Positions 7,712 to 31,214 of a stretch of 37,653 bases of DNA are shown one piece after another; position 1 is the first letter of the stretch, and each line of letters opens with the position of its first letter. The notes beneath the pieces were generated by a model. It was not told where the DNA came from and made no database searches. It worked only from the letters and a program-made list of their open reading frames with translations. Location: positions 1 to 37,653 of IMG/VR virus record IMGVR_UViG_3300017963_000486. One strand, 5' to 3'. The DNA is from a virus. The position numbers and the translations under genes are program-made.

Positions 7712-7874
7712 AGCTATAGTGGAAAGGCTAGTTGATTTAAATTCTGATGATTTCAATGATTGGGAATCAGAATTTATACATGATCTATGGTATAATAGAA
7801 ATTTTAATGATTTATCAGATAGACAAAAACAAAAAATACTGGAGATAAATAATAAATATGGAAAGATTAGCTAA
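7701..7874 (+). CDS. Hypothetical 57-residue helical protein
   Basis: Starts at ATG 7701 overlapping the stop of the upstream gene; 'GGAGAATTTAAGG' lies just upstream. The 57 residues are mostly helical and acidic with two Trp (NDWESEFIHDLWYNRNF). It overlaps the start of the next gene by 17 bases. No family recognised. A longer reading from an upstream in-frame ATG at 7641 would lie wholly inside the previous gene and has no better site. Confidence 0.55.
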   Translation: MNYEAIVERLVDLNSDDFNDWESEFIHDLWYNRNFNDLSDRQKQKILEINNKYGKIS

Positions 7875-15195: not shown

Positions 15196-15197
15196 AT

Positions 15198-15272
15198 GAC
15201 GATGTGGTCTAGTTGGTCAAGGACATCGGGTTTTCATCTCGATAGTCGGGGGTTCGAATCCCCCCATCGTTG
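15198..15272 (+). tRNA. tRNA-Glu (TTC)
   Basis: A full cloverleaf of 75 nt: 7-bp acceptor GACGATG/CATCGTT with a G-U first pair, 3-bp D stem GTC/GAC, anticodon stem TCGGG/CTCGA with loop TTTTCAT (anticodon TTC at 15233-15235), 5-nt variable loop, and a T arm GGGGG-TTCGAAT-CCCCC. Discriminator is G. CCA is not encoded. It begins two bases after the stop of the acidic head gene. Confidence 0.93.
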
Positions 15273-15276
15273 ATAT

Positions 15277-15349
15277 TGTAGGGTAGAACAGTTGGTAGTT
15301 CATTCGGATGATAATCGAAAGGTCGGGGGTTCAAGTCCCTCTCCTACAA
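15277..15349 (+). tRNA. tRNA-Ile (GAT)
   Basis: A 73-nt cloverleaf: acceptor TGTAGGG/TCCTACA (last pair G-U), D stem GAAC/GTTC, anticodon stem TTCGG/TCGAA with loop ATGATAA (anticodon GAT at 15310-15312), variable AGGTC, T arm GGGGG-TTCAAGT-CCCTC. Discriminator A, as usual for Ile. CCA not encoded. Confidence 0.92.
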
Positions 15350-15354
15350 GATAA

Positions 15355-15430
15355 TGCGGAGTAGAGCAGTCTGGTAGCTCGCATGGCTCATAATCATGGT
15401 CAGTCGCAGGTTCAAATCCTGTCTCCGCAA
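15355..15430 (+). tRNA. tRNA with CAT anticodon (elongator Met or lysidine-type Ile2)
   Basis: A 76-nt cloverleaf: acceptor TGCGGAG/CTCCGCA fully paired, D stem GAGC/GCTC, anticodon stem CATGG/TCATG with loop CTCATAA (anticodon 15389-15391), T arm GCAGG-TTCAAAT-CCTGT, discriminator A. The variable region is 7 nt (GTCAGTC), longer than the usual 4-5. The paired 1-72 position and the lack of three G-C pairs in the anticodon stem argue against an initiator. CCA not encoded. Confidence 0.88.
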
Positions 15431-15435
15431 ATAAA

Positions 15436-15506
15436 TGAGGTGTAGCCAAGTGGTAAGGCATTGGGTTTTGATCCCATGATCGGGGGTTCGATTCCTTCCA
15501 TCTCAG
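15436..15506 (+). tRNA. tRNA-Gln (TTG)
   Basis: A 71-nt cloverleaf: acceptor TGAGGTG/CATCTCA, D stem GCC/GGC, anticodon stem TTGGG/CCCAT (outer T-T mismatch, four good pairs) with loop TTTTGAT (anticodon TTG at 15468-15470), 4-nt variable loop, T arm GGGGG-TTCGATT-CCTTC with two G-U pairs. Discriminator G. The 5' half closely follows the usual tRNA-Gln pattern (TAGCCAAGTGGTAAGGCA). CCA not encoded. Confidence 0.92.
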
Positions 15507-28501: not shown

Positions 28502-28915
28502 ATGCAAGATAATGCAATGGCTGAAAAGAAAAAGTGTTTCTGGGACGGTGAAGAGATTTCTGGATTAGTTAGTGTAGAGGAAATTTCCAGAGAAAAACGA
28601 ACTGTTGAAGTTCCTTCTTTTTCTAAGATTAGGGATTTAAATTCAGGTATAATTAAAATTCCACCTCTTAATATAGTTTATAAGGTGGAAAGAAATACAA
28701 ATACCAGAGCATTTTTTGAGAATTTTTACAACCAGAACCAAGTAAAAGATCTGGAGATTGTAAGAACGGATGCTGATGGTGTTGAATTTTCAAGAAAGTT
28801 ATATCCGGATTGTGAATGTACGAAGATTGCTGAACCATCATATGATGCAGCAAATCCTAACTATGCAACTATATCAATTACTGTTACACCATGGGATATA
28901 ATTGATTTAGACTAA
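28502..28915 (+). CDS. Tail tube protein
   Basis: A 137-residue protein immediately after the sheath, the standard place for the tube that DNA passes through. The strand pattern (KCFWDGEEISGLVSVEEISR, KRTVEVPSF, PPLNIVYKVERN, a helix ARAFF-like segment, then CTKIAEPSYDAANP and ATISITVTPWDI) fits the tube beta-barrel with its central helix. A strong AAGGAGGA precedes ATG 28502; ATG 28517 is also in frame and would give a start at MAEKKK. Confidence 0.78.
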   Translation: MQDNAMAEKKKCFWDGEEISGLVSVEEISREKRTVEVPSFSKIRDLNSGIIKIPPLNIVYKVERNTNTRAFFENFYNQNQVKDLEIVRTDADGVEFSRKLYPDCECTKIAEPSYDAANPNYATISITVTPWDIIDLD

Positions 28916-28928
28916 AAAGGAGTAATTT

Positions 28929-29753
28929 ATGGAATTAAGGTTGCCAATACCGATTTTTTTAAAGGATAATATTTACACTCATGTGGAAGTCAAGACACCA
29001 ACTGCTAAAGTATTAGCTGATACAAATGATGTAATCAACTCAGCAGGTGAATACATGGGAATGAGAAATTTAATCTCTGGATGTATAGAAAGGGTGTTTA
29101 ATGAAAATAATGAAATAACAGATTCTGTATCTATCAAATCTTTGGTATTTAAGATGCCCAATAAGACTGCAGAATTTGTTTCTACTGATTTAATTGTAGA
29201 TTTTTTTAATGGTGACGATTATGTGACCGGTATTTATCCCTGTCCAATATGTAGAAATGAGGAAGTGTCTAAACAATCGTTTGATATAGATACAAGAGAT
29301 AGAATAAGTGATCTAAAAGTAGTTTATATGGAAGTGGATGAATATCAAAATTCAATAACTGTTAATTTATCAGAACCAGTAATTATTAAGGTAAAAAATG
29401 AAGAACTTCAAGTTGATAATATTACAATTGGGTATCCAACTTTAGAACATCACCACAAGGCTTATACCAGATTTGGAAATACTAATACAATACGATATCA
29501 ATTGGCTATATATTCTGAAGCTTTAATAGAAGTGAATGGTCAAGCTATATCCGATGAATGGAGACGATCTTATGGTATGAAGATTTTTGAGAATATGTCC
29601 AGAATCAAAGAAGTAACAGATAAGTTTTCAGATTTTATAAATAAGTATGGTCGTGATTTAAGAGTCGAAAAAATTTGTAAGTCATGTGGTGAGGTTTGGC
29701 AACCCATTATAAATACTTCCAATTTTTTCGGTTCTGCACTCCAGTTACGTTAG
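28929..29753 (+). CDS. Tail assembly chaperone, short form (zero-frame product)
   Basis: A 274-residue protein between tube and tape measure. It carries two CxxC pairs, CPIC (Cys105, Cys108) and CKSC (Cys250, Cys253), likely one zinc site, with strands (SLVFKMPNKTAEFVSTDLIV) between helices. Proteins of this kind coat the tape measure during tail assembly and are often made in two forms by frameshifting. AAAAGGAG lies upstream. The stop TAG (29751-29753) sits in the loop of the stem-loop that follows a slippery site in its last codons. Only a small share of ribosomes should shift; most make this short form. Confidence 0.75.
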   Translation: MELRLPIPIFLKDNIYTHVEVKTPTAKVLADTNDVINSAGEYMGMRNLISGCIERVFNENNEITDSVSIKSLVFKMPNKTAEFVSTDLIVDFFNGDDYVTGIYPCPICRNEEVSKQSFDIDTRDRISDLKVVYMEVDEYQNSITVNLSEPVIIKVKNEELQVDNITIGYPTLEHHHKAYTRFGNTNTIRYQLAIYSEALIEVNGQAISDEWRRSYGMKIFENMSRIKEVTDKFSDFINKYGRDLRVEKICKSCGEVWQPIINTSNFFGSALQLR

Positions 29754-29995
29754 ACGAGTATCTTGGAGTGCGAACCGAGAATTTAGTTTGTATTAGTGAT
29801 GCTTTTAGATTGATAGATTTTTCAATTGATAGATTTGTGAAGGAAAGTTTTTTGATGATGTATTTAAGTCAGGGGGGTTTGACGTATTCGGATTTAATCA
29901 ATATGAGTTTTAAAGAATATCAAGAATTCAAAAAAGAGGCAGTAGAATTACAAAATGCTATGAATCCTAAAAAAGAGGAGCAAGACGGTGGATGA
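28929..29995 (+). CDS. Tail assembly chaperone, long form by -1 frameshift
   Basis: Reading the zero frame to Phe267 (29727-29729), slipping back one base and continuing from CGG at 29729 joins the short form to a second frame that ends at 29995, giving 355 residues. The extension (RFCTPVTLDEYLGVRTENLV, then helical ...YSDLINMSFKEYQEFKKEA) has no ATG or ribosome site near its beginning, so it needs the upstream frame. This is the G/GT arrangement: the extension usually binds tape measure. Frame arithmetic is consistent with a -1 shift (zero frame is position 0 mod 3, extension 2 mod 3). Confidence 0.85.
29723..29729 (+). promoter_or_regulatory. Slippery heptamer T TTT TTC for -1 frameshifting
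   Basis: The zero-frame codons are AAT TTT TTC GGT, so the heptamer reads T TTT TTC. It fits X XXY YYZ, letting both tRNA-Phe codons re-pair one base back. It lies in the 58-base overlap of the two chaperone frames, as a frameshift site must. Confidence 0.88.
29728..29778 (+). promoter_or_regulatory. Frameshift-stimulating stem-loop
   Basis: The 5' arm TCGGTTC (29728-29734), one bulged T, then GCACTCCA (29736-29743) pairs with TGGAGTGC (29764-29771) and GAACCGA (29772-29778): 15 base pairs with a 20-nt loop. The upper 8-bp part begins 6 nt after the heptamer, the usual spacing, and the lower part would be opened by the ribosome at the slippery site. Confidence 0.85.
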
Positions 29996-31214
29996 CATAA
30001 CCTTGACATTTAATCCTAACATGTTTTTAGAGGCAATAGGCAAGATCAACATGGGTCTTGAGACTATGGATCAAAATTTTAAGTCATTTGCTGACCAAAA
30101 TACCAAGAGGTCAGAAAAGACCAAAGTGTCGGCCTTAAGTATTGCTAAAGGTATTGGTGTAGCCAATATTGCTATGTCTGGATTTAGGAAAATTATGGCT
30201 CAAATTCCTGAATTGGGCAGGACATTTTCAATAGCAGGTAGTATTATATCCAAGAATTTGCTTTGGCCTCTTAGACAAGAGTTGATTCCAGTATTGCAAA
30301 AAGTGTTAGATTGGGTTCGTGATAATAGGGCTATGTTCGTAAGATGGGGTAATGTAGTAAGAAATATTTTTATAGTAATTAAAAACTTAGTAACTGGTAT
30401 AGTCAGAATTTTACAGCGTTTATGGGATGGATTTATATCGGGTATTGAAAGAGCATTTAATACTTCAGTTGGTAAGATGACTGATTTGGCCAATTTATTG
30501 GTATTCAAGATTTCAGCAGTTATTAATTTTTTAGTTATAACATTAGAACCAGTAGCTGACATAATAGCAGGCATAATGGTTAAATCGGCAAGGGCTGTCA
30601 TGGGTTTTGTACAGGGATTTAGTGAAGGATTTGGTGATGTAAGTGAAGTTCTATTTGATGTAATGGATGTTTTTAAAGATTTCTTGGGCTTACTTGATAG
30701 TATGTCCGGTAAGGGTGACACCTTGGTAAAAATATTCAGAACATTGGGATATGTACTTGGTACTGTTGTAGGTGGAGCGATCAGGTTGGCACTTAGTCTA
30801 TTTGATAGTTTATTATTGGGGATAAATGAAGCTGTTGGTTTTGTGAAATGGGGAATTGCCAGATTGAAGGGTGATGATGCTGAGGCTAAACGAATTCGAA
30901 AATCAACAGATGCAGAGACTGAAAGGATTGGAACACGTATTCAACAAAGAATGCAACGACAAAGGGATATAACAGTTGGAGGGGGAAAAAGAATTGGTCA
31001 AATGTGGACGAGTGGAACAGGTAATGAACCGGCTAAATTAAAACCTGAAACGGTCACCAATAATCAGAGTACATCTAGTGTTGTGAATCAAAATATTACT
31101 GTAAATAATCGAATAGATGGTACTAAAGATCCACAAATGACAGCAGATCAAATATCCGGACAATTGAGGGATCAGTTATCAAAAGAAAGAGCTAAAGCAG
31201 GGAGATCAAGATAA
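29988..31214 (+). CDS. Tape measure protein (short)
   Basis: A 408-residue, mostly helical protein directly after the chaperone, so it is the tape measure. It has several hydrophobic helices, notably LLVFKISAVINFLVITLEPV (about 165-184) and a Gly/Ala segment around 247-275, and a polar, disordered Gln/Asn/Thr end. With the usual 0.15 nm per residue it predicts a tail near 60 nm, short for a contractile phage. The start is GTG 29988, with GAGGAG at 29975-29980, overlapping the frameshift product. Confidence 0.82.
   Translation: MDDITLTFNPNMFLEAIGKINMGLETMDQNFKSFADQNTKRSEKTKVSALSIAKGIGVANIAMSGFRKIMAQIPELGRTFSIAGSIISKNLLWPLRQELIPVLQKVLDWVRDNRAMFVRWGNVVRNIFIVIKNLVTGIVRILQRLWDGFISGIERAFNTSVGKMTDLANLLVFKISAVINFLVITLEPVADIIAGIMVKSARAVMGFVQGFSEGFGDVSEVLFDVMDVFKDFLGLLDSMSGKGDTLVKIFRTLGYVLGTVVGGAIRLALSLFDSLLLGINEAVGFVKWGIARLKGDDAEAKRIRKSTDAETERIGTRIQQRMQRQRDITVGGGKRIGQMWTSGTGNEPAKLKPETVTNNQSTSSVVNQNITVNNRIDGTKDPQMTADQISGQLRDQLSKERAKAGRSR

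Follow-up and report, generated by a model that had tools for sequence, protein, structure and literature searches.

RESULTS

Features of the locus

The window analyzed here is the whole virus record IMGVR_UViG_3300017963_000486 (37,653 bases, positions 1 to 37,653), and the chaperone locus lies on its plus strand. An open reading frame of 274 aa (ORF0, 28929..29753) is preceded by a Shine-Dalgarno (SD) sequence, AAAAAGGAG, graded good, and was assigned as the short (G-like) form of a tail assembly chaperone from its homologues, its invariant cysteines, AF2 and Foldseek analyses, and a profile match to T4 gp26. The heptamer T TTT TTC (29723..29729), followed by an invariant G, lies in phase with this frame, as the first-pass annotation of the DNA had claimed, and its codons TTT TTC encode Phe266-Phe267 of ORF0. 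The zero-frame stop codon TAG (29751..29753) sits in the loop of the hairpin that follows, where that annotation had placed it. A second frame at −1 extends over 88 codons and a stop (29729..29995), and its earlier description as a frame running to 29995 with no ATG or ribosome site near its start held on rechecking. Homologous frames, third-position bias and AF2 modeling mark it as a probable C-terminal helical domain of a 355-aa, GT-like product, with the predicted fusion junction ...NTSNFF-RFCTPVTLDEYLGVR....

The upstream neighbor (28502..28915) is a probable tail tube protein, called from a weak PHROG tail tube match, its position after the sheath gene and the same order in relatives. The downstream neighbor (29988..31214) encodes a tape measure protein of 408 aa (PHROG tape measure, E 2.8e-08), and the start of its gene overlaps the stop of the −1 frame. 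The two frames are thus placed between tube and tape measure genes as in lambda-type G/GT pairs, the tube call in the window being weak by HMM. A tape measure protein of 408 aa implies a short contractile tail. Elsewhere in the window, four tRNA genes, Glu(ttc), Ile(gat), Met(cat) and Gln(ttg), were found at 15197-15506.

Among the 11,865 codons of the window, 60 in-phase X XXY YYZ sites were counted. A long −1 frame, of 88 codons, follows only the one at 29723; after the next best of the 60, the −1 frame spans 15 codons. Since this is the sole long −1 frame among 60 in-phase heptamers, and is joined to a stable RNA fold, the feature is real and not a chance match.

Stem-loop downstream of the heptamer

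The stimulatory stem was located by folding and by covariation in homologues. Its 5' arm, GCACTCCAG (29736..29744), is separated from the heptamer by a 6-nt spacer (29730..29735), and its 3' arm, CTTGGAGTGC, with one T bulged, lies at 29762..29771. The upper stem is formed by pairing of GCACTCCA (29736-29743) with TGGAGTGC (29764-29771), and an extra pair, G29744-C29762, extends it across the T bulge. Folding of the RNA 3' of the heptamer gave −23.7 kcal/mol (z −4.2), with 0 of 200 shuffles as stable; when the heptamer was included, the value was −29.9 kcal/mol (z −5.6, 0/200 shuffles equal), and the U run of the heptamer was also paired in this fold, made in isolation. The first-pass annotation described a 15-bp stem with one bulge: paired arms do follow the heptamer directly, although a strict count gives two bulges. 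Its view of the upper 8 bp, spaced 6 nt from the heptamer, as the effective stimulator agrees with the homologues, in most of which the closing pair lies at +7.

Below this, the spacer in the window also serves as the 5' arm of a lower stem, in which GGTTC (29730-29734) pairs with GAACC (29772-29776) and T29735 is bulged; the complete 3' arm, 29772..29781, pairs with 29725-29734. This lower stem, which reaches into the heptamer, recurs in the close sister locus L017 and elsewhere partly in single loci. It was therefore considered lineage-specific and rejected as a general functional element.

Homologues and conservation of the heptamer

The Leptospira phages LE3 and LE4 were matched by tblastn at 22-23% identity, and two Leptospira plasmid-prophages were matched by tblastn from LE3. 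All four carry T TTT TTC at homologous Phe-Phe codons, with a homologous −1 frame from the next codon. About 100 further environmental viral loci were collected by searching viral contigs with sheath and chaperone profiles; the tail sheath profile was the probe that yielded relatives, and no matches were obtained with the single window protein against viral contigs or with two queries against genome contigs. T TTT TTC together with a long −1 frame was present in 105 fetched loci, some of them overlapping, from which a non-redundant set of 57 loci (<80% nucleotide identity) was drawn. The heptamer is identical in 57/57 of these, which is no independent count because the set was chosen by the heptamer. 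All 57 also have a G after the heptamer, read FF in the zero frame at the slip point, and have CxxC or CxxxxC at most 25 aa before it. The −1 extension is 69-100 codons long across the set.

An independent point comes from the few loci that bear the gene outside the heptamer-filtered set: in each of them but L062, a contig end truncates the locus. In L062, CAG CTT TTC GAG replaces the heptamer at the end of ORF0 (near 7763), and the −1 frame is kept together with a stem, GCTCTCC/GGGAGAGC, at 6-nt spacing. Either the site in L062 varies naturally or the sequence was misassembled. A separate case is L073 (6335-8864), which has the sheath and tube genes of this phage group and, after the tube gene, other genes and not ORF0; this arrangement is either a rearrangement or a misassembly.

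The −1 frame as coding sequence

In 13 pairs of relatives, differences were commonest at the third positions of the −1 frame. The per-position differences were 27/15/48 between the window and L017 and 10/3/30 between L008 and L009. Judged from these patterns, the −1 frame evolves as protein. The AF2 model of the encoded domain is helical (pLDDT 72.7). No conserved start codon or SD sequence was found in the −1 frame across homologues, in which ATG and GTG are scattered, so what is seen is a coding, overlapping −1 frame with no start of its own. In ten loci, a stop in the −1 frame lies 6-9 nt before the slip point, and the frame is therefore not enterable from upstream in these loci.

Covariation and spacing of the stem

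Across 13 aligned sequences, 97% of cells are paired in the 8-bp arms (+7 to +14). Covariation of the arms was a check set beforehand, and all eight pairs (8/8) vary on both sides with pairing kept. The covariation score was 0.80, versus 0.24 ± 0.05 in shuffles, and pairing fell to 39-53% when the partner was slid by 1-3 columns. The 3' arms had been picked for best pairing, and controls with an equally free choice were therefore added. When the spacer was scanned from 0 to 21 nt, a 7-bp stem was commonest at 6 nt (38/57 loci), versus at most 15 loci at spacers of 0-5 nt; the runners-up are neighboring registers of the same stem. Arm pairing with a locus's own downstream DNA was 15.3, versus a mean of 10.7 and a maximum of 12.25 with the DNA of other loci (2000 permutations). 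In 60-nt MFE folds, +7 was the opening side of a helix in 52/57 loci. The 6-nt spacing, backed by the covariation and the swap controls, thus places a downstream structure within the 5-9 nt of a −1 frameshift signal.

The form of the stem varies among loci. About one-third lack a perfect 7-bp stem at spacing 6 within 55 nt, and the majority of this third carry stems with bulges or of longer range; no clear stem was found in L041, L067, L084 and L098 by the spacing-6 scan and folds. Local folding detected no strong local hairpin in LE3 or LE4. A 174-nt fold (z −5.0) revealed an 11-bp stem at the same spacing, which closes a loop of ~130 nt holding another hairpin; in LE3 (L002, 4787-4960), and likewise in LE4, L003, this long-range stem pairs GCUCUCCGUUC with GAGCGGAGAGC.

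The first-pass annotation had named in advance what would speak against a frameshift, namely homologues with an unconserved slippery site and stem and a second frame with its own start. This comparison found the heptamer in all of the heptamer-selected loci, covarying arms and no conserved start, with L062 as the locus lacking the heptamer, and the frameshift reading withstood this test.

Alternative explanations for the overlapping frames

Programmed −1 ribosomal frameshifting at T TTT TTC, yielding a short and an extended chaperone, is very probably the correct reading of these data. Transcriptional slippage on the six-T run, which would give mRNAs of altered length, part of them fusing the frames, with the stem being incidental, is very unlikely. 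Slippage can occur on homopolymer runs, of which this site is one; however, six T residues are short for transcriptional slippage in bacteria. Moreover, an invariant C and an invariant G follow the T residues, the phase of a tandem-slip heptamer is maintained, and a slipping polymerase would need neither the fixed 6-nt spacing nor the covarying stem.

It is very unlikely that the second frame represents a distinct gene, translated from a start of its own or by coupling and never fused to ORF0. Small separate CDSs are annotated at this place in LE3/LE4 and in several phage records, and translational coupling is common at overlapping genes, but homology in the −1 frame starts at the codon after the slip point, ahead of any start codon, and the scattered ATG and GTG positions lack SD sequences. 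A separate gene would also leave the heptamer, the 6-nt spacer and the covarying stem unexplained. A ribosomal bypass of the kind known from T4 gene 60, a hop across the hairpin, could join the frames as well, since the hairpin is strong and a hop of ~50 nt would restore the same frame. In many loci, however, the hairpin itself is read as −1 coding sequence (R-x-R-S-P... is conserved across it), the loop length ranges from 6 to ~130 nt among loci, and conserved matching take-off and landing codons are absent, which makes a bypass highly improbable. That the stable, GC-rich hairpin near the stop codon is an intrinsic terminator or another RNA element, or that a sequencing error has split one gene, can hardly be credited, given that no T run follows the hairpin, that it lies inside the tail operon, and that the same layout occurs in 57 non-redundant loci, in independent assemblies and in finished genomes. 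The bypass, terminator and separate-gene readings were rejected on these comparative data.

Relation of ORF0 to T4 gp26 and gp51

ORF0 contains two CxxC pairs, C105/C108 and C250/C253, which are invariant in a 15-sequence alignment and bear out the earlier statement that the 274-aa first product carries a zinc site. The AF2 model built with 15 homologues has a pLDDT of 91.6. Its best viral Foldseek neighbors come from LE4, which belongs to the family itself, from Bacillus phage BCD7, the top named hit beyond the family, and from proteins annotated as T4-like baseplate hub or hub assembly proteins, among them Aeromonas phage 25 gp26 and SP-15; several of the T4-like hub/assembly proteins matched at E ≤ 1e-4, with TM values mostly of 0.4-0.6. 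A PDB fold search with ORF0 gave no match. Over the length of gp26, the family profile matched the T4 gp26 set at a probability of 93.7% alone and of 97.3% with SP-15-type relatives, versus only 17-64% for gp51. The Pfam PF12322 (T4_baseplate) HMM does not match ORF0 or its homologues, and does match the SP-15, LIS04, GXN1 and Atu_ph07 relatives. Neither ORF0 nor the −1 domain had a usable match when compared with Pfam and PHROGs.

On the basis of these profiles and models, ORF0 groups with T4 gp26/gp51 as a distant relation. No lambda gpG family was matched by ORF0 in Pfam or PHROGs, and its fold neighbors are T4-like hub proteins. The resemblance to G/GT would therefore be one of analogy, in position and proposed mechanism, and not that of a lambda gpG homologue. 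The first-pass assignment to a G/GT type of chaperone accordingly stands for position and mechanism and is refined for family, the protein being gp26/gp51-like.

Shifted frames in other phages with gp26-like genes

A gp26-like gene of the PF12322 type also precedes the tape measure gene in Bacillus phage SP-15, Listeria phage LIS04, Streptomyces phage BRock and other phages, and a shifted frame that overlaps it is homologous to the −1 domain. Where the gp26-like gene ends, this frame is +1 in SP-15, LIS04, GXN1, LR756508, Mel-JY01 and four Streptomyces phages. These +1 frames (L121, 34990-35929; L122, L123, L124, L126, L127 and L128-L130) reach near the tape measure gene. Published records show small separate ORFs or a gap at the overlaps, which are probably unannotated +1 frameshifts; they would need another recoding signal than the heptamer of the window. 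The baseplate hub gene of Agrobacterium phage Atu_ph07 (L131, 1444-2510) ends with the T TTT TTC G seen in the window, and there a −1 frame of 75 codons overlaps it, with a strong hairpin ~19 nt downstream and not 6. The overlap in LR756511 also looks −1.

The shifted-frame domains of the mostly +1 set matched the −1 domain of the window family with an hhalign probability of 92.6% (E 4e-7). T4 gp26 (L132, 5803-7229) ends at EFFELL, where gp51, homologous to it at 99.4%, continues for 45-50 aa. For this gp51 extension, the match was 76.5% (E 2e-5) to the mostly +1 set, 8% to the −1 set by itself and 28% to the two combined; reversed controls gave 0.1-1.6%. As the direct HMM match of the −1 domain to T4 gp51 is weak, the part concerning T4 is put forward as a hypothesis. 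The suggestive reading is that T4 may encode its G and GT forms as two genes, 26 and 51.

DISCUSSION

Comparison among loci shows a frameshift signal with its conservation, the covariation of its stem, a coding −1 frame, the gene position and the predicted fold. Two predicted products, a G-like protein of 274 aa and a GT-like protein of 355 aa made via programmed −1 frameshifting, are strongly supported by this evidence. From it we infer the slippage itself, its efficiency and the ratio of products, the junction and the roles of the products. In the proposed mechanism, the hairpin 6 nt downstream would stand at the mRNA entry and cause the ribosome to pause on U UUU UUC in ORF0. In a fraction of ribosomes, both tRNA-Phe would slip from UUU UUC to UUU UUU, and translation would continue for 88 codons in the −1 frame. 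The 274-aa protein would be the majority product and the 355-aa protein, with its C-terminal helical domain, the minority. If lambda is taken as the model, coating of the tape measure protein may fall to the short form and recruitment of tail tube subunits to the extension, and both chaperone forms would leave the finished tail.

A −1 frameshift is conserved in tail assembly chaperones such as lambda gpG/gpGT, in the account of Xu, Hendrix and Duda (2004) given in PMC5009743. As in lambda, the gene lies between tail tube and tape measure, the heptamer is near its 3' end, the −1 extension is similar in size, and a short and a long product are expected. In contrast to lambda, the first product here has 274 aa, two CxxC pairs and a T4 gp26-like predicted fold, and T TTT TTC with a stem at 6-nt spacing is the arrangement throughout the family described here. 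T4 gp26 and gp51 are hub assembly chaperones (PMC3004832). ORF0 resembles gp26 in predicted fold, zinc-knuckle layout and its end at an EFF motif, and gp51 has a C-terminal extension in place of the frameshift domain; unlike the phage of the window, T4 has two separate genes and no frameshift.

Other close systems are LE3/LE4 (Nylescharonvirus) and the plasmid-prophages p5 and p2_L200901116, which share the gene order, heptamer, spacer and −1 domain. They differ in ORF0, which has only 20-24% aa identity, and in that their two frames are annotated as unrelated hypothetical proteins. The LE3/LE4 paper handles the two frames as separate proteins, also in its proteomics search, and does not mention frameshifting. 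In the open-access literature, as distinct from subscription papers, we found no report of frameshifting in gp26/gp51-type genes.

A broader reading, which we consider evenly balanced between true and false, is that the gp26/gp51 family is the frameshift-encoded G/GT chaperone of many contractile-tailed phages, shifted by −1 or +1, and that T4 has split it into the paralogues 26 and 51. Outside the T4-like phages, a single gene would then yield both forms by a shift at one shared Phe-Phe point, of −1 in the leptophage-like clade and Atu_ph07 and of +1 in SP-15 and in phages of Streptomyces and Microcystis. The recoding review describes G-T frameshifting as widely conserved among phages with long tails, "except T4" (PMC5009743). 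If the broader reading is true, the split into 26 (short) and 51 (long, with the extension) explains the apparent lack of G-T frameshifting in T4.

The finding adds a deeply conserved, covariation-supported candidate frameshift to the chaperone group in which T4 is listed as the exception. It corrects the annotation of Leptospira phages, in which the extension is listed as a separate gene, and it identifies the extension in about 100 phage loci from the environment. The stems form a natural series, from local hairpins to a long-range stem with a 130-nt loop and a variant lacking the heptamer, which offers a test set for the mechanics of frameshifting. For the biology of T4, it offers an account in which gp26 may be the short and gp51 the long form of a tail assembly chaperone, and not unexplained hub factors.
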